Source of the DNA: Sphingobacteriales bacterium
Lineage (GTDB): Bacteria > Bacteroidota > Bacteroidia > Chitinophagales > Chitinophagaceae
Direction of reading: 5' to 3'
Assembly: GCA_004295245.1 (NCBI GenBank)
Contig: REAR01000073.1
Span: 1 to 32,972 of the forward strand
DNA: 32,972 nucleotides
Shown here: positions 3,526-31,749 of the stretch, one piece after another
Layout of the letters: each line of letters starts with the position of its first letter
Numbering within the stretch: the stretch's first letter is position 1
Position numbers and translations under genes: made by a program
Notes under the pieces: model-generated
What the model was told of the DNA's origin: nothing
Seen by the model: the letters and a program-made list of their open reading frames with translations, nothing else
Databases searched by the model: none

Positions 3526-3582
3526 GCAGATTGATTGCAGAAAGTTTTCTGTTGTAAAAAAAATACCGGGCTGTTTGGTATG

Positions 3583-3633
3583 GCTGAAGAGTGCGACGCA
3601 ACAACAGCCGAATAGTGTTTTGCAGCTGGTAAC
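3583..3633 (+). repeat. Dispersed repeat copy E1 (GTGCGACGCAAC ... GGTAAC)
   Basis: The core GTGCGACGCAAC is at 3591-3602, preceded by GCTGAAGA and followed, after exactly 25 bases, by GGTAAC (3628-3633). The GGTAAC end abuts the gldJ terminator at 3634. It lies between murF and gldJ and belongs to the family described in the findings. Confidence 0.85.
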
Positions 3634-3666
3634 AAAAAAAGCCACTCTTTACAGAATGGCTTTTTT
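3634..3666 (-). terminator. Intrinsic terminator after gldJ
   Basis: A hairpin with paired ends AAAAAAGCCA and TGGCTTTTTT encloses a loop of about 12 bases. It is A-rich on the left and T-rich on the right, so it can work in either direction. It lies just beyond the gldJ stop (minus strand). Confidence 0.75.
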
Positions 3667-5357: not shown

Positions 5358-5422
5358 TGTTTTTACTACCGTATAAATACGTTAAAAAAGGGTTTAGGTT
5401 TCTTAAAGTCAAAAACTTACAT

Positions 5423-5483
5423 AATACCAGCCGCATTACTCCGGGGCAACATTGTTGCGTCGCAATCCTTTCATGGGCAGTAC
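5423..5483 (-). repeat. Dispersed repeat copy E2 (reverse orientation)
   Basis: The core GTTGCGTCGCAA is at 5454-5465. AATACC (5423-5428) takes the place of GTTACC, exactly 25 bases before the core. The outer flank TCCTTTCAT after the core is shared with copy E5. It sits in the divergent gldJ/porU spacer. Confidence 0.8.
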
Positions 5484-5591
5484 AAAAATGGGGCATTGGT
5501 TTTGATATATCAGTTGCCAACTTTTAGCCGCTGCAGCAATTTCAAACCGGCAGCGCTCTTAGTATCAATTTCTTGTTCCTAACTTAGCAGT

Positions 5592-8500
5592 ATGCACAAA
5601 TGGCTGGCCACCTTACTATTATTATTATTATTTAAACTTGTACCGGCACAGCGTACCTATAAAAACGCATCAGTTCTGGCATCGGGCAACTGGTACCAGT
5701 TTAGTATTAAAGAAGCCGGTGTTTATAAAATAGATCTCGCCTTTCTTAACAAATTGGGCATTACCAATACGGCTATCCCCTCCGGTACCCTGCAAATTTT
5801 TGGTAACGGCGGTGCCATGCTGCCAGAGGCTTGCAATGGCAGTAAAACCGACGATTTGGTTGAAAATGCCATACAGATAGAAGATGGCGGAGATGGCGTG
5901 TTTAATGGCAGCGATTATATTTTGTTTTATGCCAACGGCCCTGATGGCTGGATAGCAGACTCCGTTAACAAAACCTACAAACACACCAAAAATTTATACA
6001 GTAACTCGGTTACTTATTTTTTAGCCCTTGGTAGTAATGGCAAACGTATTAACAATGCCCCAGCTGCCGGCACTTTTAATACGGTATCCACCGCTTATGA
6101 TTTTCGCTTTTTTTATGAGCTGGATTCTGTTAACCTTTTAAGCAGCGGTAAGGATTGGCTGGGAGATGAATTGTCTAACATGCCGGGCAAAACCAACACT
6201 AAAACATTTTCGATACCAGCAAATAATATTGTAACCACCAATGCAGGTAGCTTTACATCCCATTGTGTGGGGCGTTCTGTTGGCAGTAATAGTATTTTAC
6301 AGGTAAGCGTTAATAACAGTAATTTATTTCAACAGGTATTTGCTTCTACTGGTGCTGGCAACTACGATTTATTTGCCCGTACAGATACCCGGCAAGCCAA
6401 CTTTACACCGGGCAACAATCTTACTATCAGCTATCAGTTTACCCCCGGCAATGCCACCGCACAGGCATGGATAGATTGGTTTGAACTGGTATGCCGTGCT
6501 ACGCTAAGCCTAGCCAATAATACACAACTATCGTTTAGAGACTGGACAACCGTTGGCCCGGGCAATAATACAGAGTTCCGCATTCAATCAGCACCGGCAG
6601 GCACACAAGTTTGGGATATTAGCAATCCTTTATCACCCATTCAACAAACCCTTCAAGCAGCGGCAGGTACCGTTTCGTTTACGGCAGCCAGCAATACCTA
6701 TAAAGAATACATTGCCTTTACAAATACAGGTTTAAAAACACCGGCTGCTATTGGCAAAATACAAAATCAAAACCTGCACAGCAGCGGCCCTACAGATTTC
6801 ATAATTATTACTACACCACCATTATTGGCGCAGGCACAGCGGCTGGCATTGCACCACCAACAAAAAGACAATCTAAAAACCATTGTAGTTACAGCTTCTC
6901 AAGTATATAATGAATTTAGTGGCGGCCAACCAGACCCCACCGCTATCAGAGATTTTGTAAAAATGTATTATGATAAAGCAGGTGCAGATACAACCAAACG
7001 GCCCCGGTATTTATTACTCTTTGGCGATGCTTCTTTTGATTACAAAGACCGTATACAAAACAACACCAACTTTATTCCATCCTATCAAAATAACTTTTCT
7101 TACGATCCTTTAGCTACTTATACTTCAGACGATTTTTTTGGTTTTTTAGATGATGCCGAAGATATTAATGCAGGCACAATATTGAACTTTTTAGATGTGG
7201 GCATTGGCCGCATACCTTGTAAAACCACCGAAGAAGCTACTGCCGTGGTTGATAAGATAATTCATTATGCCAGCAACAAAACACTCGGCACCTGGCGTAA
7301 CCAGCAAACTTTTATTGCAGACGATGAGGATTTTAACCTGCATTTTACCGACGCACAAGTAATAACAGCTGCAGCCAATAGCACCAACCCACTTTTTTTA
7401 CAGGAAAAAATATACATGGATGCTTATCAGCAGGAAAGCAATGCAGCCGGCAGCCGTTACCCAGCGGTTAACCAAGCAATAGACAATCAAATACAAAACG
7501 GCACATTAATATGGAATTATAATGGGCATGGTGGGTTTAGAAGACTGGCAGAAGAAGTGATTTTAGAAAAGGAAATTGTAGATAAATGGAATAACCCCAA
7601 TAAACTTCCTTTATTTATTACTGCTACCTGCGATTTTGCACCCTACGACAACCCAGCTTATTTTTCTTTAGGTGAATATATTTTACTAAAACCGAATGCT
7701 GGCGCCATTGCATTAATGACCACCACAAGGCTGGTATTTGCATTCAGCAATCGAATTATGAACCGCAACTATTTGCAAACAGCATTGCAACCACTAGCCG
7801 ATGGCTCTTACTTAACATTAGGAGAAGCCGTACGGCGCACTAAAAATTTAACCTACCAAACACAGTCAGACATTACCAATAACCGCAAGTTTACTTTATT
7901 AGGAGACCCTGCTTTGCGTTTAGCATTTCCTACCTATAAAGTAACCGCCACCCATATTAATGGTTTGGCCATTAACAGTACTGCAGATACATTAAAAGCT
8001 TTAAATAAATACAACATCAGTGGTAGTATTAGTAACGCAATCAATCAACCAGCCACCAACTTTAACGGCACCCTATATGCAACTGTGTTTGATAAACCCC
8101 AAAGCACCAGCACTCTTGCTAACGACCCTGACAGCTATAAAGAAAATTTTCAGGTGCAGCGCAACCAGCTTTTTAAAGGAAAAGTAACTGTGAAGGATGG
8201 CAACTTCTCACTAAATTTTATTGTTCCAAAAGACATTAACTACCAGCCCGGTTTTGGCAAAATCAGCTTCTATACTGAAAACGGCCAGTTAGATGGCAAT
8301 GGCAGCTTTACTAATTTTATAATTGGCGGCTCTGCAGGTGATTTGAACGATAAAGAAGGCCCGCAGATAAAGGCGTTTTTGAACGACGAAAAATTTGTAA
8401 ACGGAACGTTGGTGAACGAAAAACCCATGCTATTGCTGAAGCTTTCAGATTCCTCAGGCATTAATGTTATGGGCACCGGCATTGATCATAACCTGGTTGC

Positions 8501-9008
8501 TATTTTAGACAATAACCCCAACCAAACTTATATCTTAAATAATTTTTTTGAAGCAGATCTTAACACCTACCAATCGGGCCAGGTAGGGTTTCAATTGCCG
8601 GCATTAGAAGAAGGCAATCATACCCTCACCATCAAAGCTTGGGATGTTGCCAACAACTCCTCTCAAGCGCAAATTAATTTTTTGGTACAAAAAACCGGCA
8701 CCCTGCAATTACAAAGGGTTTTAAACTACCCCAACCCCTTTACCAGCAAAACTAGCTTTTGGTTAGAGCACAACCGACCCAGTCAAGATTTAAAGGTTCA
8801 TATTCAAATTTTTACAGTCAGTGGAAAGCTGGTAAAAACCATTAGAACAACAATAAATACACCCGGAAATCGTTCTAATTCTATTGTTTGGGATGGCACT
8901 GATGATTATGGCGCAAAACTGGCAAGAGGTGTTTATATTTACCAGGTTAAATTAACTGGTTCAGACGGCAAGACTGTATCAAAATTGGAAAAATTAATGA
9001 TCTTGTAA
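5592..9008 (+). CDS. porU: Type IX secretion system sortase PorU
   Basis: The gingipain-like (C25) cell-surface sortase that cleaves C-terminal signals of T9SS cargo and attaches the proteins to the outer surface. It has 1138 residues, as usual for PorU. A signal peptide covers residues 1-19 (LLLLLLFKLVPA, then QR). The catalytic pair is visible: His646 in WNYNGHGGF and Cys680 in FITATCDFAPYDNP. The C-terminus (about 1045-1138) contains YPNPF, an Ig-like fold with VWDGTDDYGAKLARGVYIY, and the sorting-domain-like end KLEKLMIL. porV follows 97 bases later, and PorU and PorV work together at the outer membrane. The gene is divergent from gldJ. The ATG at 5592 gives a complete signal peptide. Confidence 0.95.
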   Translation: MHKWLATLLLLLLFKLVPAQRTYKNASVLASGNWYQFSIKEAGVYKIDLAFLNKLGITNTAIPSGTLQIFGNGGAMLPEACNGSKTDDLVENAIQIEDGGDGVFNGSDYILFYANGPDGWIADSVNKTYKHTKNLYSNSVTYFLALGSNGKRINNAPAAGTFNTVSTAYDFRFFYELDSVNLLSSGKDWLGDELSNMPGKTNTKTFSIPANNIVTTNAGSFTSHCVGRSVGSNSILQVSVNNSNLFQQVFASTGAGNYDLFARTDTRQANFTPGNNLTISYQFTPGNATAQAWIDWFELVCRATLSLANNTQLSFRDWTTVGPGNNTEFRIQSAPAGTQVWDISNPLSPIQQTLQAAAGTVSFTAASNTYKEYIAFTNTGLKTPAAIGKIQNQNLHSSGPTDFIIITTPPLLAQAQRLALHHQQKDNLKTIVVTASQVYNEFSGGQPDPTAIRDFVKMYYDKAGADTTKRPRYLLLFGDASFDYKDRIQNNTNFIPSYQNNFSYDPLATYTSDDFFGFLDDAEDINAGTILNFLDVGIGRIPCKTTEEATAVVDKIIHYASNKTLGTWRNQQTFIADDEDFNLHFTDAQVITAAANSTNPLFLQEKIYMDAYQQESNAAGSRYPAVNQAIDNQIQNGTLIWNYNGHGGFRRLAEEVILEKEIVDKWNNPNKLPLFITATCDFAPYDNPAYFSLGEYILLKPNAGAIALMTTTRLVFAFSNRIMNRNYLQTALQPLADGSYLTLGEAVRRTKNLTYQTQSDITNNRKFTLLGDPALRLAFPTYKVTATHINGLAINSTADTLKALNKYNISGSISNAINQPATNFNGTLYATVFDKPQSTSTLANDPDSYKENFQVQRNQLFKGKVTVKDGNFSLNFIVPKDINYQPGFGKISFYTENGQLDGNGSFTNFIIGGSAGDLNDKEGPQIKAFLNDEKFVNGTLVNEKPMLLLKLSDSSGINVMGTGIDHNLVAILDNNPNQTYILNNFFEADLNTYQSGQVGFQLPALEEGNHTLTIKAWDVANNSSQAQINFLVQKTGTLQLQRVLNYPNPFTSKTSFWLEHNRPSQDLKVHIQIFTVSGKLVKTIRTTINTPGNRSNSIVWDGTDDYGAKLARGVYIYQVKLTGSDGKTVSKLEKLMIL

Positions 9009-9105
9009 GTCTTATTTATTGAAAACACGTATTTTAGCCGTTCATATAGTAAAAATACCAACAAACGACCGCATGATTATATCGCTACTTTAAAACATTA
9101 ACCTG

Positions 9106-10257
9106 ATGAAACGTATGACCTTTAAACTACCTGCCTTTCTGGTATTATTATCTGGATTGACACTGACTGCATTTGCACAAGCAGACAGAAAAATAAACGT
9201 GGTAACCACGTCTGTTCCTTTTTTGCGTATTTCTCCAGATGCACGTGCTGGCGGTATGGGCGAAGTTGGTATTGCTACCTCGCCTGATGCAAATAGCCCT
9301 TTCTGGAACCTGGCTAAAACAGCTTTTAATGAAAGTGAAGGTGGCCTTTCTTTAACGTATACTCCCTGGCTTAGAAGACTACAATTAAACGATGTTTACC
9401 TGGCAACTGTTACCGGCTACTATAAATTAAGCGATCAGGAAGCTATTGCCGGTTCTTTGCGTTATTTCAGCCTTGGTAATATTCAGTTTACAGATAATCT
9501 GGGTAACGACTTTGGTTCATTTCGCCCCCGCGAGTTTTCTTTTGATGCAGGTTATACCCGTAAATTATCAGAGAAAATGGGTTTAGGTGTGGCATTACGC
9601 TACATCAACTCAAACCTTGCAGGCGGACAAGTTGTTAACGGTACCACTTACAAAGCCGGAAGCACTGTTTCTGGAGACCTTAGCTGGTTTTATACCGGGC
9701 AAAACCAAGTAGGCGAAGGCTGGAACCTAGGTGCTACTTTAACCAATCTGGGTGGTAAAATTGGTTATACCAACGATGCCAAGCAAAAAGACTTTATACC
9801 CGCTAACTTAGGCATTGGTGCCGCACATAGCTGGGTGTTTGATGAAAGCAATAAACTAACCTTTGGTGTAGATGTAAATAAATTATTAGTACCTACCCCA
9901 CCAGCCGTTGGCGATTCTGCCGGCCTGGTAGCTTACCGCAGCAAAAGTGTTGTTAGCAGCTGGTTCAGCAGTTTTGGAGATGCACCCGGTGGCTTTGGCG
10001 AAGAGCTGAGAGAGTTTCAGGTAAGCGGTGGTTTTGAATTTGTGTATCAAGATCAGTTTGCGCTTCGTGCAGGTTATCATTACGAAGATGCAACAAAAGG
10101 CAACCGCAAATATTTTACATTGGGCGCCGGTTTAAAATACAATGTATTTGGCCTAAACGTTTCTTATATCATTCCTTCGGGCAGTGGTATCAACCAAAAC
10201 CCATTGTCAAACACCCTACGTTTTGGAATTGTGTTTGATTTTGGTGCAGAGAAATAA
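9106..10257 (+). CDS. porV: Type IX secretion outer-membrane protein PorV (LptO)
   Basis: An outer-membrane beta-barrel of the FadL-like PorV family that shuttles T9SS cargo from the translocon to the PorU attachment complex. The 383-residue protein starts with a clear signal peptide (FLVLLSGLTLTAFA, then QAD; cleavage near residue 25). RISPDARAGGMGEVGIATSPDANSPFWN follows, a typical start of this family, then alternating barrel strands and a final LRFGIVFDFGAEK strand. It directly follows porU, the usual partnership. An in-frame ATG at 9115 would also leave a usable signal peptide. It ends in a terminator with a repeat copy beyond. Confidence 0.95.
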   Translation: MKRMTFKLPAFLVLLSGLTLTAFAQADRKINVVTTSVPFLRISPDARAGGMGEVGIATSPDANSPFWNLAKTAFNESEGGLSLTYTPWLRRLQLNDVYLATVTGYYKLSDQEAIAGSLRYFSLGNIQFTDNLGNDFGSFRPREFSFDAGYTRKLSEKMGLGVALRYINSNLAGGQVVNGTTYKAGSTVSGDLSWFYTGQNQVGEGWNLGATLTNLGGKIGYTNDAKQKDFIPANLGIGAAHSWVFDESNKLTFGVDVNKLLVPTPPAVGDSAGLVAYRSKSVVSSWFSSFGDAPGGFGEELREFQVSGGFEFVYQDQFALRAGYHYEDATKGNRKYFTLGAGLKYNVFGLNVSYIIPSGSGINQNPLSNTLRFGIVFDFGAEK

Positions 10258-10281
10258 GAATAACAACAAATCAATATCTTT

Positions 10282-10312
10282 AAAGCGTCTCTAAAGAGGC
10301 GCTTTATTTTTT
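10282..10312 (+). terminator. Intrinsic terminator after porV
   Basis: AAAGCGTCTC (10282-10291) pairs with GAGGCGCTTT (10296-10305), with one G-T pair and a TAAA loop. A T-rich tail follows. It lies 25 bases after the porV stop and stops directly against repeat copy E3. Confidence 0.85.
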
Positions 10313-10313
10313 T

Positions 10314-10414
10314 GTTACCAGCAGCAGTCGCACTCTTCAGCTCCGGTTGCGTCGCACCCTTCAGCTGAAGAGTGCGACGCAACGGTGATGCCATGAAAAA
10401 CTAAAGCCGGTAAC
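10314..10414. repeat. Compound repeat locus E3: two head-to-head cores plus a partial unit
   Basis: GTTACC (10314-10319) is followed after 26 bases by the reverse core GTTGCGTCGCAC (10346-10357). The forward core GTGCGACGCAAC (10372-10383) comes next, with GGTAAC (10409-10414) after exactly 25 bases. The two cores and the CTTCAG/CTGAAG between them form a 38-base palindrome with one mismatch. A further partial unit, TCGCACTCTTCAGCT, is at 10328-10342. The locus fills the gap between the porV terminator and ispF. Confidence 0.88.
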
Positions 10415-10437
10415 CACATAAAAAACCAATAAAAATG

Positions 10438-13587: not shown

Positions 13588-13629
13588 TTATAAAAAGAAA
13601 CCCGCTAATTGGCGGGTTTCTTTTTATAA
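13588..13629. terminator. Strong intrinsic terminator after the envC-like gene
   Basis: A perfect 18-bp stem (13588-13605 with 13612-13629) has a GC-rich top, CCCGC/GCGGG, and a 6-base loop. A/T-rich lower arms let it work in both directions. It starts nine bases after the stop codon. Confidence 0.92.
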
Positions 13630-15625: not shown

Positions 15626-15926
15626 GTGCTGTATTTATTTTTAAGTGTTTCAATTTTTTAATGTAGCTGTTTGCATAAATACTAATTACCATATTTGGTA
15701 ACAACGTACAAGTTCTGCTAAAGTTGAGATGAAGTGCTACTGTTACTTGTTCCTCGCAGCGTTGCAGCTAACATGTGCGACGCAACGGCTGCCGGGTTTA
15801 GTACAATTGCTGGCTACCCTTTATTTAACAGGTTGCAAAAATAAGATGTTCCATTTGTATTGCCCATTTGTTAAATACCAATTTATTACCGGAAATGTGT
15901 ATTTTCACGCCCTCTTATAACCTTGT
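15626..15926. other. 301-base divergent spacer between glyA and the nucleotidyltransferase gene
   Basis: It contains a short palindrome, TTACCA-TATT-TGGTAA (15686-15701), which could be an operator about 60 bases before glyA, and repeat copy E4 (15751-15817). Promoter matches here are weak. A 63-codon plus-strand frame crosses the repeat and is not convincing. Confidence 0.5.
15751..15817 (+). repeat. Dispersed repeat copy E4 (GGCTAC variant)
   Basis: The core GTGCGACGCAAC is at 15775-15786, with GGCTAC (15812-15817) exactly 25 bases further on. The left flank GCAGCTAACAT and the right end GCTGGCTACC closely match copy E7, so the two form a subgroup. Confidence 0.82.
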
Positions 15927-16925
15927 ATGAAAGCAATTATACCCGTAGCAGGTGCAGGTACCAAACTACGCCCACATACTTACACGCAACCTAAGGCACT
16001 AATACCATTGGCTGGCAAAACCATCCTTAGTATTATTATAGACCAATTACAAGATGCAGGTATACACGAGTTTGTGTTTGTTGTTGGCTACCTGGGCGAC
16101 AAAATTCAGGACTTTGTTAAAGAAAAATACCCACACCTTAAATCGCATTTTGTACATCAAAATGAACGCCATGGTTTAGGGCACGCCATTTTTATTACTA
16201 AAGACATTGTAGCTAACGATGAGTTGTTTATTGTGCTGGGCGATAGTATTTGCGAGTATGATGTGGCAGCCGTATTAAACAGCCCCCATTCTGTGCTTTG
16301 CGTAAAACGGGTAGATGACCCCAGAGATTTTGGCGTGGCCGAAATGAATGAAGAAAATAAGGTAAGCCGCGTGGTGGAAAAGCCACAAATACCCAAAAGC
16401 AATATGGCATTAGTGGGTATTTATAAAATAAAAGAGTCGGGCCTGCTATTCTCTTGCCTTGAGAAAAATATTAATGAGCAGGTAATGAGCCGTGGTGAAT
16501 ATAACTTAACGGATGCTATTGAATGCATGATTAAGCAAGGCGCTATTATTGAAACTCAAAAAGTACAAAACTGGTTTGATTGTGGTAAAATAGATTCTTT
16601 GCTGCAAAGCAATGCCACACTGCTTAAAAAATTTGGTCATACCATTGCAGAAGATCACCAGTTTGAAAACACCATCATTATTCCACCGGTAAGTATTGCT
16701 GCCGGTTGCGATATTAAAAATTCTATCATTGGCCCCAATGTGGCTATTGGCGAAAAAGCTTCTATTAATTATTCCATCATTAAAGATTCTATCATTGGCA
16801 GCTACTCAGACCTGCTGGATATTGTACTCACCCACTCATTAATTGGCAGCGATACCGATGTAAAAGGTGAAAGCCGCAGTTTAAATATTGGCGATAATAC
16901 CGAAATAGATTTGGGCAAAAGCTAA
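15927..16925 (+). CDS. Sugar-1-phosphate nucleotidyltransferase with left-handed beta-helix tail
   Basis: A 332-residue cytoplasmic enzyme of the NTP-transferase family, which joins a sugar 1-phosphate to an NTP and makes activated sugars for polysaccharide or envelope glycans. The N-terminal Rossmann-like domain has the loop GAGTKLRP (residues 9-16, with Lys where Arg is common) and PKALIPLAGK (22-31). IVLGDS holds the metal-binding Asp. VEKPQIPKS and an NWFDCG motif follow. From about residue 250, hexapeptide-like repeats (IIPPVSIAAGC, SIIGPNVAIGE, SIIKDSIIGSY) form a short left-handed beta-helix. The base and sugar cannot be fixed from sequence; glucose-1-phosphate thymidylyl- or uridylyltransferase is most likely. 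It stands alone between repeat copies E4 and E5. Confidence 0.88.
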   Translation: MKAIIPVAGAGTKLRPHTYTQPKALIPLAGKTILSIIIDQLQDAGIHEFVFVVGYLGDKIQDFVKEKYPHLKSHFVHQNERHGLGHAIFITKDIVANDELFIVLGDSICEYDVAAVLNSPHSVLCVKRVDDPRDFGVAEMNEENKVSRVVEKPQIPKSNMALVGIYKIKESGLLFSCLEKNINEQVMSRGEYNLTDAIECMIKQGAIIETQKVQNWFDCGKIDSLLQSNATLLKKFGHTIAEDHQFENTIIIPPVSIAAGCDIKNSIIGPNVAIGEKASINYSIIKDSIIGSYSDLLDIVLTHSLIGSDTDVKGESRSLNIGDNTEIDLGKS

Positions 16926-16942
16926 GTAGTATTCCAACTTTT

Positions 16943-16995
16943 GTAACACAGTGGCAGCATCGTTGCGTCGCAATCCTTTCATCTTTTGAAAGTAC
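16943..16995 (-). repeat. Dispersed repeat copy E5 (reverse orientation)
   Basis: The core GTTGCGTCGCAA is at 16962-16973, with GCAGCATC before it and TCCTTTCAT after it, as in E2. The GTTACC end is degenerate: a GTAAC is present at 16943 but at 14 rather than 25 bases. The copy begins 17 bases after the nucleotidyltransferase stop. Confidence 0.75.
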
Positions 16996-17057
16996 AGCAG
17001 CTGTAGGGTTTATGGCATTTTAAAAATGGCTATCTTCAAAAAACAGATTGCGCCATT

Positions 17058-18471: not shown

Positions 18472-19125
18472 ATGAAAGCAATACTAATAACAATTACAGT
18501 TTTTGTGCTGGCCCTTACAACAAACGCACAACCTTTTAGTGGCGAGATACAGGCTTTTAAAAAACAAGACAGCCTTTCGTTTCCGGTGCCTAATCAAATT
18601 TTGCTCATTGGCAGCTCTTCATTCCGTTTATGGAAAGATGTGCAAAACAGTTTTCCTACATACCCAATAGTAAACCGGGCTTTTGGAGGCTCCACCCTGC
18701 CCGATATTATCCGCTACCGCTATGAAGTTATTTATGCCTATCAGCCCAAACAAATACTTATTTATTGTGGCGAAAATGATTTTGCATCCAGCGACACCGT
18801 AACGGTTGCCACCGTTGCAAACCGGTATAAGCAGCTGCATCAATTAATACGTGCTAAATTTCCCGCCGTGCCCATTGGGTATGTATCTATGAAGCCCAGC
18901 CCCAGCCGGCAGCACTTGTTGCCAAAATATAAAGAAGCCAATTACCAGATACAGCAATTTTTAGCAACAGATGCTAATGCAACATTTATAAACGTGTACA
19001 AGGCTATGCTTAACAGCAATGGCCAACCTATGCCCGATTTATTTATTGCAGACAACCTGCACATGAATGCCAAAGGCTATAGCATCTGGCAAAAAATTAT
19101 ACTGCCTTATTTAGTAAAACAATAG
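18472..19125 (+). CDS. Secreted GDSL/SGNH-family esterase
   Basis: A 217-residue SGNH hydrolase with a signal peptide (MKAILITITVFVLALTTNA, then QPF). The blocks are ILLIGSSSF (block I, with Ser replacing the Asp of GDS), FGGST (block II), YCGENDFA (block III, the GxND motif) and DNLHMNAKGY (block V, Asp-x-x-His). The triad is therefore complete apart from the usual block I variation. Family members remove acyl groups from carbohydrates, lipids or other esters; this one's substrate is unknown. A longer frame opens at 18388 inside the GH30 gene, but only the ATG at 18472 gives a signal peptide and a seven-base gap, so it is preferred. Confidence 0.9.
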   Translation: MKAILITITVFVLALTTNAQPFSGEIQAFKKQDSLSFPVPNQILLIGSSSFRLWKDVQNSFPTYPIVNRAFGGSTLPDIIRYRYEVIYAYQPKQILIYCGENDFASSDTVTVATVANRYKQLHQLIRAKFPAVPIGYVSMKPSPSRQHLLPKYKEANYQIQQFLATDANATFINVYKAMLNSNGQPMPDLFIADNLHMNAKGYSIWQKIILPYLVKQ

Positions 19126-19128
19126 TAG

Positions 19129-19195
19129 GTAACCAGCAGCAATGCTCCGGTTAGGCATCGTTGCCACGCTAGCTTCAACGGCAACGCAGCAACTG
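19129..19195 (-). repeat. Degenerate dispersed repeat copy E6
   Basis: GTAACC (19129-19134) is followed after exactly 25 bases by GTTGCCACGC (19160-19169), a decayed form of the core GTTGCGTCGCAC. CGTTGCC (19159-19165) pairs with GGCAACG further on. It begins three bases after the GDSL stop codon and overlaps the only ATG available to the next gene. Confidence 0.65.
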
Positions 19196-20868: not shown

Positions 20869-20905
20869 CTTTCATAAAATTAAATACAGCAACCTTTTGT
20901 TGCTT

Positions 20906-20967
20906 GTAGCACTGCAGTTAACAGGTGCGACGCAAGGATGACGCTATGAAAAACTACTGCTGGCTAC
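20906..20967 (+). repeat. Dispersed repeat copy E7 (GGCTAC variant)
   Basis: The core GTGCGACGCAAG is at 20925-20936, with GGCTAC (20962-20967) exactly 25 bases on. The end touches the stop codon (20968-20970) of the minus-strand LD-carboxypeptidase gene. The left flank GCAGTTAACAG matches E4. Confidence 0.85.
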
Positions 20968-21876
20968 CTACTCTTCTAGCAACACTTTGGTTTTGCCTAC
21001 TTTTAACTTATAGCCTACCCCTACTTTTAATGCATAATTTTCTTTCTCGTGGCTTACCGGAAAATTATAACAAACAGGATAATTGTATGGGGCTACTGCA
21101 TCTTTAATAATCTCGTAAACGGTTTTACCAAAGGGGCGTTCTGTATCCTTGGTATCTGTAAAGCCACCTACAATTAAGCCGGCCAATTTTTCTAATTTGC
21201 CACTGCGTTTTAGTTGCTGCATCATACGATCGGTGCTGTATAAATATTCGCCCACATCTTCTAAAAATAAAATACGCCCTCTTGTTTTAATATCTGAAGC
21301 GGTGCCAATACCATGTGCTAGCAAGGAAAGATTACCACCCACCAATTCACCAATAGCTGCTCCTTTTACATTAAAATCGTGTGCCGGCAGTTCGTACTTA
21401 ATTTTTTTTCCTTCTAAGGCATGCCGTAAAGATTGAACATACACATTATTAAAAGCACCATTGTTAAACGCGGCAGCCATAGGCGCATGTAAACTGGCTA
21501 TTTTATAATTGCTATAAATATGGCTGTGCAATACCGTAATATCGCTGAAGCCAATAATCCATTTTGGGTTTTTTTTGAACGCTTTAAAATTTATTTGCTC
21601 AATAATACGTGTAAGGCCATAGCCGCCGCGGCCGCATAAAATTGCTTTTACAGTATCATCATCCAACAGTTGCTGAAAATCGTTCAAACGTTCTTCATCA
21701 GTGCCTGAAAAATAAGTAGTGGAGGTGCTGCCTAAAGTGGCACCTACTTTTATTTTATAACCCCACTGTGTTAAGGTTTCAATACAGGTTTGCGCTTTTT
21801 CTGCAGCCATATAACCAGCAGGGCAGGTAATGCCAATGGTATCGCCGGGTTTTAAGTAAGAAGGGAGTTTGATCAT
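20968..21876 (-). CDS. LD-carboxypeptidase (peptidase S66), cytoplasmic paralogue
   Basis: A 302-residue S66 serine peptidase, the family that removes the terminal D-Ala from murein tetrapeptides during peptidoglycan recycling. The triad is visible: Ser111 in GFSDITVLH, Glu206 in FLEDVGEY and His276 in FPVSHEKENYALK. It also has GRGGYG near residue 82. I prefer the ATG at 21876 (MIKLPSYLKPGD) over the frame start at 21903: it leaves a single base between the upstream paralogue's stop and this start, while 21903 would overlap that gene. There is no signal peptide. It is the second gene of a tandem pair and is likely translationally coupled. Confidence 0.9.
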   Translation of the reverse strand: MIKLPSYLKPGDTIGITCPAGYMAAEKAQTCIETLTQWGYKIKVGATLGSTSTTYFSGTDEERLNDFQQLLDDDTVKAILCGRGGYGLTRIIEQINFKAFKKNPKWIIGFSDITVLHSHIYSNYKIASLHAPMAAAFNNGAFNNVYVQSLRHALEGKKIKYELPAHDFNVKGAAIGELVGGNLSLLAHGIGTASDIKTRGRILFLEDVGEYLYSTDRMMQQLKRSGKLEKLAGLIVGGFTDTKDTERPFGKTVYEIIKDAVAPYNYPVCYNFPVSHEKENYALKVGVGYKLKVGKTKVLLEE

Positions 21877-21877
21877 T

Positions 21878-22900
21878 TTAAATTTCTTTAAGCGTAACGG
21901 CATTATTACTAACTCTTAACTGGTGCACTACACCACATTTTAATGCAAAATTATTTTTTTGGTGCCCTACCGGAAAATCAAAACATACAGGATATTTATA
22001 GTTTTTTATTTTTTCCAGAACTATTTCCTGCAGGTCTTTGCCAAACTCTTCTTTAGAGTCCTCTGCAGCTCTTATTTTAAAGCCTCCTATAATTAATCCT
22101 TTTAATAAAGAAAGTTTTCCGCTTCGTTTCAGGTTCCAGAACATTCGATCGATGCTATATAAATATTCACCGGTATCTTCTACAAATAAAATTTTTCCGG
22201 CGGTATGTAAATCGCTTTTACTACCCGCTAATGTTTCAATAGTTTTTAAGTTGCCGCCTACCAGCATACCGCTAGCTAGCCCTGCAACGTTTCGGGCATT
22301 AGGGGTGGCGGTGTACTGCATTTTCTCTGCCATTAATGCCTGGCGAATGGATAAGATGGTTTCAATTTGTATGGGCTCGGCTTTGCTCCAATCATCGGGG
22401 AAGCTATTGCACATTTTGCTATGTATAGTGGCCACGCCAAAATTTCGGTTGATATGTGAATGCAGCACGGTAATATCACTAAACCCAATGACCCATTTGG
22501 GATGTTGCAGAAACTGTGTAAAATTTAAACGGTCTACAATTCGCAGGGCGCCGTATCCGCCGCGGGCACAAAGAATGGCTTTTACTTTTGGGTCGTCTAA
22601 CAATTGCTGTAAGTCAGCGGTTCTTTCTGCATCGGTACCACCAAAAGTAAAATCGCGTTTGCCAATAGAGGTGCCTATTTTAATTTTCAGCCCCCAACTC
22701 TCTATTTGTTTAATAGCAGGGGCTATTTCTTCAAAGGTTATATAGCCTGCGGGGCTGGTAATGGCAATTGTATCGCCGGGCTTTAATTTACGTGGAACAA
22801 GACCTGCAATAGCACCATCGTCTTCGTTTTTGACAGCCGCCAAGGTTTTTATAGTAGTGCCGGCCAGCAATAAGCCCCCTAAAAATTGTTTCCGCTTCAT
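21878..22900 (-). CDS. LD-carboxypeptidase (peptidase S66), exported paralogue
   Basis: A 340-residue S66 peptidase, paralogous to the following gene. The triad is Ser141 in GFSDITVLH, Glu241 in FVEDTGEY and His313 in FPVGHQKNNFALK, with ARGGYG at 112-117. Unlike its neighbour it has an N-terminal extension of about 35 residues starting MKRKQFLGGLLLAGTTIKTLA. This looks like an export signal, with a Tat-like KRKQFL rather than a perfect twin-arginine motif. It would therefore act in the periplasm, while the paralogue acts in the cytoplasm. It is the first gene of the pair and is divergent from porP. Confidence 0.9.
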   Translation of the reverse strand: MKRKQFLGGLLLAGTTIKTLAAVKNEDDGAIAGLVPRKLKPGDTIAITSPAGYITFEEIAPAIKQIESWGLKIKIGTSIGKRDFTFGGTDAERTADLQQLLDDPKVKAILCARGGYGALRIVDRLNFTQFLQHPKWVIGFSDITVLHSHINRNFGVATIHSKMCNSFPDDWSKAEPIQIETILSIRQALMAEKMQYTATPNARNVAGLASGMLVGGNLKTIETLAGSKSDLHTAGKILFVEDTGEYLYSIDRMFWNLKRSGKLSLLKGLIIGGFKIRAAEDSKEEFGKDLQEIVLEKIKNYKYPVCFDFPVGHQKNNFALKCGVVHQLRVSNNAVTLKEI

Positions 22901-24113: not shown

Positions 24114-24170
24114 GTACATAGCAATTAAGATTTACTGTTTCCATAAAAATAGCCCCATAAATTTTGTGGA

Positions 24171-24231
24171 GCTGAAGTGTGCGACGCAATCCCGAAGTTT
24201 CGGGACTGAACGATGTGTTGCTGCTGGTACC
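24171..24231 (+). repeat. Dispersed repeat copy E8 with an inserted hairpin
   Basis: GCTGAAGT and the core GTGCGACGCAAT (24179-24190) are followed by a 14-base perfect hairpin, CCCGAAGTTTCGGG (24191-24204), then GCTGGTAC ending at 24230. The core-to-end distance is 35 rather than 25 bases. The right end lies three bases from the terminator at 24234. Confidence 0.8.
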
Positions 24232-24233
24232 AT

Positions 24234-24268
24234 AAAAAAACTCCGGGTAATTAATCCGGAGTTTTTTT
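24234..24268. terminator. Bidirectional intrinsic terminator between porP and the sigma factor gene
   Basis: AAAAAAACTCCGG (24234-24246) pairs with CCGGAGTTTTTTT (24256-24268) around a 9-base loop. It can terminate porP from the left and the sigma factor gene from the right. Confidence 0.9.
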
Positions 24269-25030: not shown

Positions 25031-25407
25031 AAACTTCTACAGTTTTTAAAGTTATTGGATTTATAGTTACAGAGAGATTGGGAAAACTAAATGTTGTGAA
25101 GTAGAGTTTATGCGATAGGCTTGTAGTTTAGGTTTTTCATTTTAGTGTGTGTTTGGATTTTAAAAAAACATTTATAAACCGAAAATAATACAAAAAATAA
25201 TACAACCAAATTTTATAAAAAAAAAATTGCCCTATAAAAGCATGATTACGTGTTAGTACTTAACCAACTCGTAGATTTCCGATAATTTTACCAAATTATT
25301 AAGATATCGGTTACAGGCTGCATCTGGTGCTTCAACATCGTTGCGTCGCATTCCGTTCATCAGTATATCTTTACTCAACAAGCTTAGGAGAAACAGCACT
25401 CAATTTT
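25031..25407. other. 377-base AT-rich divergent spacer between the sigma factor gene and uvrA
   Basis: This is the longest non-coding stretch in the window. It contains A/T-rich tracts near 25160-25230, the TAATTTTA motif at 25283-25290, repeat copy E9 (25309-25360), and TATCTTTA at 25366-25373, a candidate uvrA -7 element. I find no SOS-box-like inverted repeat by eye. Confidence 0.5.
25309..25360 (-). repeat. Dispersed repeat copy E9 (reverse orientation)
   Basis: The core GTTGCGTCGCAT is at 25340-25351. GTTAC (25310-25314) stands about 25 bases before it and GTTCAT follows. It lies about 50 bases before uvrA, and a GTG at 25327 inside it opens a spurious upstream extension of the uvrA frame. 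Confidence 0.75.
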
Positions 25408-30326: not shown

Positions 30327-30340
30327 AATCAACTCACTCA

Positions 30341-30385
30341 TAAAATAAGAAAGCCGCTTCATATAGAAGCGGCTTTCTTATTTTA
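30341..30385. terminator. Very strong bidirectional terminator after the T9SS cargo gene
   Basis: A perfect 20-bp stem (30341-30360 with 30366-30385) encloses a 5-base loop. The GC-rich top is GCCGCTTC/GAAGCGGC with A/T-rich lower arms. It begins 14 bases after the stop. Confidence 0.93.
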
Positions 30386-30386
30386 T

Positions 30387-30454
30387 ATTACCAGCTAAAG
30401 TACAAAACCTGGCATCCTTGCGTCGCACCCTTCAGCAGCTGCACTAAGCTGTAC
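30387..30454 (-). repeat. Dispersed repeat copy E10 (reverse orientation)
   Basis: ATTACC (30387-30392) begins one base after the terminator. The core CTTGCGTCGCAC (30417-30428) follows after 24 bases, then CCTTCAG and a GTAC near 30451. It is the inverted partner of E11 in the same convergent spacer. Confidence 0.85.
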
Positions 30455-30565
30455 AATTATTGTTGCAAATAAGTATTTTTTAAAGCTCGCTATGTATAGT
30501 AGCTGAAATTGTATTTACACACAATTTTTTTCTATCGAACTATTTGTTGCCCAAAATTACTACAG

Positions 30566-30615
30566 CATAAGTGTGCGACGCAACGATGCTTAATTAGTGT
30601 GCGAATGCTGGTAAC
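30566..30615 (+). repeat. Dispersed repeat copy E11
   Basis: The core GTGCGACGCAAC is at 30573-30584, with GGTAAC (30610-30615) exactly 25 bases later and six bases before the bshA stop codon. With E10 it forms an inverted pair about 110 bases apart between the convergent cargo gene and bshA; the bases between hold no gene. Confidence 0.87.
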
Positions 30616-30621
30616 AAAAAT

Positions 30622-31749
30622 TTATATGCAGTTACAAAAGCGGTTGTATAATTTTTCGTAAATGGGTATAATATTGTGTATATCAAAAATAGCCGCATGT
30701 TGGCGGGCATTATTTTTAAACTCAAGTAATTTTTTTTCATCAGTCAGCAGGGTTAAAGCAAACTGTGCCATTCCATCTACATCCCCCACATTACTTAAAA
30801 AACCGGTTTTACCATGCTCATTAATTTCTGTTAAACCACCAGCATTGGTACTAATTACCGGCACCCCTGCAGCCATTGCTTCCAATGCAGCTAAGCCAAA
30901 ACTTTCATACTCAGAGGTAAGTAAGAATAAATCTGAAACAGCCAATATATCCTCTAGCTGTTCTTGCTTACCAACAAATCTTACATCATCAATAATATTC
31001 AGCTCCCGGCAAAGACTTTCGGCACCGCTGCGCTCTGGGCCATCGCCTACAAATAATAACTTACAAGGTATTTGCTGACGCACTTTTGCCATTATCTGTA
31101 CCACATCCATAACCCGTTTTACTTTCCTGAAGTTAGAGATGTGCAGCAAAATTTTTTCTCCGTTGGGGGCAATAACTTTTCTGAATGCATCAATAGGTTT
31201 TTTCTGAAAACGGCTTACATCAACAAAATTATGAATCACTTCTATTTCCTTTTCTATTTTAAAAAAGGCATAGGTTTCATCCCGCAGGTTTTTTGATACT
31301 GCCGTAATAGCATCACTCTCGTTCATAGAAAAAGTTACTACCGGTGCATAGGTTTTATCTTTACCTACCAGTGTTATATCTGTTCCGTGCAGCGTGGTAA
31401 TAAAAGGAATGTGTATGCCTTGCTTAGCTACAATTTGCTTGGCCATATAAGCAGCACTGGCATGGGGTATTGCATAATGCACATGCAATAAATCCAGCTG
31501 GTTATTTAAAATAACATCTACAAGAGTACTGGCCAAAGCTGTTTCATAAGGTGGGTAATCAAACAAAGGATAGGTAGGCACCCGCACTTCATGATAAAAA
31601 ATATTTGCATTAAACTCACTTAGCCTTACCGGTTGCTGGTAGGTAATAAAATGCACCTGGTGATTTTTATCGGCCAAAGCTTTTCCTAATTCTGTTGCCA
31701 AAACACCACTACCACCAAAAGTTGGGTAGCAAACAATTCCTATACGCAT
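30622..31749 (-). CDS. bshA: N-acetyl-alpha-D-glucosaminyl L-malate synthase
   Basis: The GT-B (GT4) glycosyltransferase that joins GlcNAc from UDP-GlcNAc to L-malate, the first step of bacillithiol synthesis. The 375-residue length and the N-terminus MRIGIVCYPTFGGSGVLATELG are characteristic of BshA, as is VHYAIPHASAAYMAKQI (about 94-110). The C-terminal nucleotide-sugar domain has VGDGPERSGAE and ESFGLAALEAMAAGVPVIST with the conserved Glu pair. The other bacillithiol genes (bshB, bshC) are not in this window. It is convergent with the cargo gene and divergent from the M28 peptidase gene. No transmembrane segment is seen, so it is cytoplasmic. Confidence 0.95.
   Translation of the reverse strand: MRIGIVCYPTFGGSGVLATELGKALADKNHQVHFITYQQPVRLSEFNANIFYHEVRVPTYPLFDYPPYETALASTLVDVILNNQLDLLHVHYAIPHASAAYMAKQIVAKQGIHIPFITTLHGTDITLVGKDKTYAPVVTFSMNESDAITAVSKNLRDETYAFFKIEKEIEVIHNFVDVSRFQKKPIDAFRKVIAPNGEKILLHISNFRKVKRVMDVVQIMAKVRQQIPCKLLFVGDGPERSGAESLCRELNIIDDVRFVGKQEQLEDILAVSDLFLLTSEYESFGLAALEAMAAGVPVISTNAGGLTEINEHGKTGFLSNVGDVDGMAQFALTLLTDEKKLLEFKNNARQHAAIFDIHNIIPIYEKLYNRFCNCI

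Follow-up and report, generated by a model that had tools for sequence, protein, structure and literature searches.

Strand-wise even spacing of a short intergenic repeat in a Chitinophagaceae genome: a candidate orientation-read signal array

What is the long palindrome that stands in the gap between porV and ispF, and does it tell how single copies of its repeat are formed? The window analysed here is the whole stretch of 32,972 nucleotides, in which this gap is flanked by genes matching the Pfam families PorV and YgbB, with a terminator-like hairpin of porV immediately before the palindrome. The preliminary description took the palindrome for a BIME-style dimer of two head-to-head repeat cores and suggested that such a dimer could explain the origin of single copies.

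The palindrome and the repeat units that compose it

The 38-base structure proved to be as nearly perfect as described, since its two arms of 19 nt each (10346-10364 and 10365-10383) are 95% complementary and join without a gap. Both outer ends were found as well, GTTACC at 10314-10319 and the matching GGTAAC at 10409-10414, and the partial third unit noticed inside the left arm is a 16-nt exact inverted copy (10327-10342) of positions 10363-10378. Folding of both strands, proposed as a check, gave a spacer (10258-10434) far more stable than its shuffles, with z of −5.6 and −6.9 for the two DNA strands and −7.1 for RNA. The palindrome itself is not a unit. It is composed of a + unit and a − unit of an approximately 75-nt intergenic repeat, whose right ends meet:

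10281..10306, + strand: intrinsic-terminator-like hairpin after porV, its T-tract continuing into the + unit
10307..10364, + strand: + unit, made of T-run, GTTACCAGC box, variable left module, core and right word CCCTTCAG
10347-10356, + strand: core TTGCGTCGCA of the + unit (profile match of the unit 10303-10401)
10327..10342, + strand: partial third unit inside the left arm, inverted exact copy of 10363-10378
10346..10383, no strand: 38-base palindrome, in which the cores of the + and − units are fused at CTTCAGCTGAAG
10365..10414, − strand: − unit with core 10373-10382, left module and GTTACC end (profile match 10341-10425)

The window gave no match in an Rfam scan. Directly upstream of porV, in the region 5592-10257, there is a C25 peptidase gene, whose secretion-tail match is below the family cut-off; together with porV it makes a porU-porV-like set of type IX secretion genes.

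The window belongs to a Chitinophagaceae genome of 3.37 Mb (G000; 269 contigs, 96% complete), in which the core TTGCGTCGCA was registered 1036 times (508 forward, 528 reverse) against 5 for the reversed-word control. BLAST with the element 10314-10413 gave at least 82 genome matches at E<=10 with 40 of 719 candidates scored. Details of unit structure were read from a sample of 629,874 bases (19% of the genome), comprising the window and 34 further stretches; its contigs were picked for BLAST matches to the element, except the window, C6 (taken for size) and C141 (taken for its Y1 gene). This sample contains 209 exact cores, 203 of which (97%) are outside crude ORF calls and 6 inside. A unit of about 75 nt starts with a T-run, followed by GTWACCAGC approximately 33 nt 5' of the core and a variable left module, the endings of which include CAGCATCG or GCAGCCG; then come TTGCGTCGCACnCTT, mostly CAR or GTR, and the right module near TCAGCA. 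Many units begin at or just past a stop codon, sometimes providing it, or behind a terminator-like hairpin. A coding reading of the unit was dropped because frames vary and stops fall inside. The pattern GTCGCACnCTT[CG][AT][AG]C occurs at 137 places of the sample and lacks the preceding TTGC in just 2 of them, one being the partial third unit of the window and the other a core with one mismatch. The partial third unit is thus a local oddity, occurring once in the sample and plausibly originating from a template switch.

Six + and six − units are present in the window, at same-strand intervals of 2.2-6.8 kb. Besides the two in the porV-ispF gap, these are the following profile matches:

3546..3640, − strand: single unit
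5421..5507, + strand: single unit, core followed by A instead of C
15738..15828, − strand: single unit
16924..17016, + strand: single unit
19120..19164, + strand: unit with a near class-B core (TTGCCACGCTAG)
20890..20973, − strand: single unit
24142..24242, − strand: single unit
25300..25389, + strand: single unit
30378..30463, + strand: + unit of a facing pair
30534..30626, − strand: − unit, partner of 30378..30463 in the facing pair

Some other structures were encountered in the course of this reading. Two adjacent − strand ORFs of the window (20968-22900; 311 and 340 aa), with DNA repeats 75-85% identical at a spacing of about 920 bp, are probably a tandem gene duplication, and 21-nt terminator-like inverted repeats lie at 30340-30386 (100%, 5-nt loop) and 13588-13629 (95%, 0-nt loop). 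At four places of the sample (L043 11167, L050 18089, L061 6777 and L042 15376) a hairpin segment of about 45 nt (TTGC...CCCCGA...TCGGGGCAC) opens the core in place of GTC, as though an insertion had occurred at the core loop, and at three others (L038 13769, L040 2409, L045 3337) left modules carry small hairpin words of the type TCCCGAA..TTCGGGA.

Close pairs are a regular feature of the family. Among neighbouring units no more than 250 bp apart 57 of 61 pairs were facing, 4 diverging and none tandem, and 117 units were single. Both cores were exact in 48 of the facing pairs, and these spanned from 36 bp (tight) to 179 bp. Other dimers, looked for as the preliminary description proposed, are indeed present: tight ones number 21 in the sample and 32 in the whole genome (<=3 mismatches; reversed control 0). 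They are over-represented in the sample, since BLAST matches to the element decided the choice of most of its contigs; outside it only one tight dimer was registered among 10 facing pairs at the sites listed. The left modules of partners were no more alike (0.495 in 21 tight and 0.478 in 27 wide pairs) than those of random units (0.505). A dimer therefore looks like two independent units placed in one gap rather than an inverted duplication, and the idea that dimers account for the formation of single copies was not borne out. The variable base of tight CTTCAGCTGAAG dimers is complementary between the two arms in 12 of 18 cases, perhaps as a result of correction within the palindrome.

Spacing along each strand and constancy of the core

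When each strand was considered alone, 239 profile-found units showed a mean interval of 4984 bp with CV 0.47, and only 5 of 201 intervals were shorter than 2.1 kb. Shuffling the strands of single units gave on average 23 such intervals (minimum 13 in 1000 runs), and random intergenic placement gave 60 (minimum 42). Thus, units of one strand keep a distance of about 5 kb (CV 0.41-0.47), while units of opposite strands may occupy one gap together. A simulated 2-kb same-strand exclusion in the same intergenic slots yielded a mean CV of 0.55 (1st percentile 0.459, 5th 0.483) versus the observed 0.47, and 104 intervals of 3-6 kb on average (maximum 122 in 300 runs) versus 127 of 201 observed, so that plain exclusion accounts for much of the evenness, perhaps not for all of it. 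In contigs outside the sample, for which 62 sites were listed, none of the 32 same-strand intervals was shorter than 2 kb against 4.0 expected (P 0.004; pairs kept, 42 single sites shuffled), and all 10 close pairs among the sites listed were facing; contigs with one listed site were left out of this set and C3, matched in earlier element searches, was included. The same tendency was found in G026, a genome of another genus, where 1 of 43 same-strand intervals fell below 2 kb (uniform null 7.6, least 2). In G006, of a further genus, 0 of 24 did so, but a uniform null of 1.6 makes this number uninformative. A run of + sites on one strand of G006 was considered and rejected, as the stretch has 15 + and 12 − sites. 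Transcription-unit 3' ends are spaced unlike the units (CV 0.87, 41% below 2 kb), and gene strand around the units is near even, with a mild excess behind same-strand genes. Taken as a whole, even strand-wise spacing suggests a genome-wide signal, not ordinary repeat clutter.

The core is kept nearly exact. In the sample there are 192 exact copies of TTGCGTCGCAC and 9 with one mismatch at positions 1-10, against a background of 5-6 for all positions; variants at position 11 add 17 more and two-mismatch words are at background. Genome-wide, 907 places have at most one mismatch, exact and one-mismatch copies pooled. A profile of the left module only, which is about 50% alike in random units, found an intact core of classes A-D in 227 of 285 matches; the other 58 comprise 46 in ORF calls and 12 intergenic, with 6 near-miss cores by reading. 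The near-miss core at window position 19120 falls in an ORF call, and one further near-miss is at L071 5306. With the exact left box as an anchor, 31 of 38 places had exact A cores, 2 had other classes and 5 were coreless, the latter looking like coding sequence. In G026, with 50 exact and 6 one-mismatch cores against 0 in the control, core decay does exist.

The same flanks may also carry other cores, namely B, TTGC[CT]ACGCTC (21 units), C, TTGTGTCACTC (9), D, TTGCG[GA]CGCTC (4), and E, TTGCTCGTT with a hairpin (3); in G006 the word TTGCTCGTT occurs outside unit context. Among the 37 units of classes B-E none has an A unit of its own strand within 2 kb, while 18.2 were expected from intergenic gaps free of a same-strand A unit, and 19 of 37 have an opposite-strand A unit within that distance. 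Pooling all core types decreased the same-strand CV from 0.54 to 0.41. This mutual exclusion speaks against deletion between identical direct repeats as the cause, and in favour of a single array serving a single function.

Distribution among relatives and rival explanations

A search of 59 genomes, including the window's own, found abundant cores only in some family members: 267 in G026, 191 in G006, and 82, 70, 68, 63, 47 and 34 in six others. G006 and G026, which represent two other genera, have the same unit, and no 10-mers of their samples are more strongly over-represented than the core words. Two genomes from the genus of the window (85% complete) had 7 and 2 cores with 4 and 7 for reversed controls, and no unit and no evident replacement word among top 12-mers were found in G001 and G002 of this genus (54 and 52 kb). 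Relatives carrying the same palindrome with no other copies of the element would have made it a local structure only, as the preliminary description pointed out. Such cases were not encountered: 65 porV loci drawn from Flavihumibacter, Ferruginibacter and other relatives, including many metagenome bins (503 kb), gave no profile match at E<=0.01, the bare core word being present twice and the class-B word once, and 7 ispF loci from 10 searched genomes (24 kb) had no unit.

Copy numbers so patchy and so different from one relative to another are what can be expected from a selfish non-autonomous MITE-like repeat with GTTACC/GGTAAC outer ends and a hidden mobiliser, the copies of which are lost, or never settle, near a same-strand copy. 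Such a repeat is rather improbable when taken by itself and almost as likely as an uptake or exchange tag. As in MITEs, the units are short and intergenic, two of them can flank a gap like inverted ends with GTTACC/GGTAAC outside in facing pairs, and they abut stop codons or follow terminators, as reported for REP insertions in PMC3733652. Unlike the paired terminal inverted repeats of one MITE, however, the two ends are unrelated units (48 pairs), so that a pair is not one element, and singles are common (117). Near-invariant cores beside left flanks only about 50% alike, and mutual exclusion of A and B-E units on one strand despite their differing cores, also speak against it, as do blastn searches of phages and plasmids with the porV-ispF gap, which gave no match, and the viral collection, in which only 24 stretches matched the 20-nt core pattern exactly. 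The mutual exclusion of A and B-E units likewise weakens the possibility that a site-specific recombinase deletes close direct copies of its target and only flips inverted ones, which would fit the free inverted pairs, the same-strand exclusion and the nearly exact core; the 2-kb limit would in our judgement be odd for a recombinase, and this explanation is improbable. Equally improbable is a Chi-like recombination hotspot, read by a helicase-nuclease in one orientation. Orientation-specific function would make the strands independent, and the array resembles Chi in presumed one-way reading and in same-strand density. But in 250 kb of E. coli K-12 75 Chi sites with a mean same-strand interval of 5005 bp were spaced randomly (CV 1.04, 22 of 65 intervals below 2 kb), unlike the array, and it counts against this reading that Chi words, being short, do without an intergenic context of 75 nt.

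A BIME consists of REPs, every one of which is itself a hairpin, and is moved by a RAYT. From the preliminary reading of the palindrome as a BIME-style dimer only a part survived: two units do stand head to head here, and their repeat has many single copies, but a lone unit forms no hairpin and the copies do not follow the distribution of Y1/RAYT genes. The family resembles REP, BIME and REPIN families as described in PMC3733652 in intergenic location, hundreds of copies, dominance of head-to-head dimers with tandem ones absent, and the ability to provide a stop codon. One unit is situated 160 bp from the only Y1 transposase gene of the genome, and 2 of 30 examined Y1 loci have a unit. Single units, however, folded with mean z of only −0.38 for the left, −0.43 for the whole and −0.14 for the right part (50 single units each), and alifold of 89 units gave 3 invariant pairs and 0 covarying. 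Mutual information in the unit alignment is mostly between neighbouring columns and thus reflects words, not base pairs. G026 with its 267 cores has no Y1_Tnp match at E<=0.001, while G036 and G040 have 9 Y1 matches and 2 cores each. The genome's own Y1 protein (motifs DHVH, WQ and YIMNQKQHH) resembles IS200 subclass 1.2, which is tabulated in PMC6006769 without REP. The strand-wise spacing rule also sets the units apart from these repeats, since in 250 kb of E. coli a REP word breaks it with 5 of 12 intervals below 2 kb, two further REP words giving 1 of 3 and 2 of 5. A RAYT-moved REP/BIME family is therefore the least probable of all explanations considered. Beside the Y1 gene (L037 1260-1440) several AT-rich hairpins of the CCCACGGTTTTAACCGTGGG type are seen, but with 1-2 copies in the 630-kb sample they do not make an abundant REP family. 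Very improbable, too, is that the unit serves at gene ends as an insulator or as a terminator of transcription in both directions. This would suit the many units found at or just past a stop codon or terminator-like hairpin; units nevertheless neighbour genes of both strands, with each of the four possible arrangements represented, 115 of 246 have the end of a same-strand transcription unit no more than 150 bp before them, and the single unit does not fold.

A possible tag for DNA uptake or exchange

We favour, though at somewhat less than even confidence, a signal array read in one orientation and most similar to a tag for DNA uptake or exchange. In such an array each strand would carry one functional site per about 5 kb, rarely closer than 2 kb and independent of gene direction, and a protein would read the core in one direction while entering or processing DNA. 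One site per strand would serve a few kb, so that a second one nearby would be useless or costly. The likeliest process would be uptake or exchange of DNA between cells, with a DUS-like tag kept exact by transfer bias, and copies would still need some copying step to arise. The best fit is an uptake or exchange tag, since inverted pairs, dialects and, by some reports, even spacing are features of known tags and transfer bias can hold words exact. Against it, about 75 nt is long for a tag evolving in place, and the contrast between 1036 copies here and 7 and 2 in same-genus genomes also suits a mobile repeat; the decayed cores of G026 and the share of the evenness that plain exclusion accounts for weigh against the array as well. 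ComEC is present in the window's genome, but it is widespread, occurring in 10 of 14 control genomes.

Like DUS of Neisseriaceae and USS of Pasteurellaceae, the array consists of about a thousand exact, evenly spaced words with inverted intergenic pairs and alternative spellings resembling dialects; inverted pairs and dialects of DUS are described in PMC3630211, and even spacing of uptake words was reported by Karlin et al. as cited in PMC1939737, where its strictness for DUS is disputed. It differs from them in strand-specific spacing, in the context of about 75 nt, in 97% intergenic location (35% of uptake words are within genes in N. gonorrhoeae, PMC1939737) and in belonging to Bacteroidota, where a role in uptake would be our reading of the pattern. 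Uptake is independent of word orientation according to PMC1939737, whereas exclusion in the array acts on the same strand only; the published statement concerns uptake, not spacing. In another Bacteroidota family Riemerella columbina reportedly prefers its own DNA (PMC7965970). Among the papers listed by literature searches for uptake words in Bacteroidetes/Bacteroidota and for competence or intergenic repeats in Chitinophagaceae, none was seen to describe such an array, and a search with the core letters found no paper on such a repeat by title and abstract.

It is possible, at rather less than an even chance, that we deal here with a strand-resolved, chromosome-wide array in Bacteroidota having interchangeable core spellings, one site per about 5 kb per strand and one-way reading, which might be the first DUS-like tag outside Neisseriaceae/Pasteurellaceae or a new oriented chromosome mark. 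If functional, it would mean that in some Bacteroidota genomes each strand is tiled separately by a signal spaced at about 5 kb, which occupies about 3% of the chromosome, as estimated from 1200-1300 units of about 75 nt scaled up from the sample. It would also point to a protein that reads the signal and to a directed form of DNA exchange or repair, within a phylum for which our searches found no described uptake word, and the strand-wise spacing rule offers a simple criterion for separating signals from selfish repeats.
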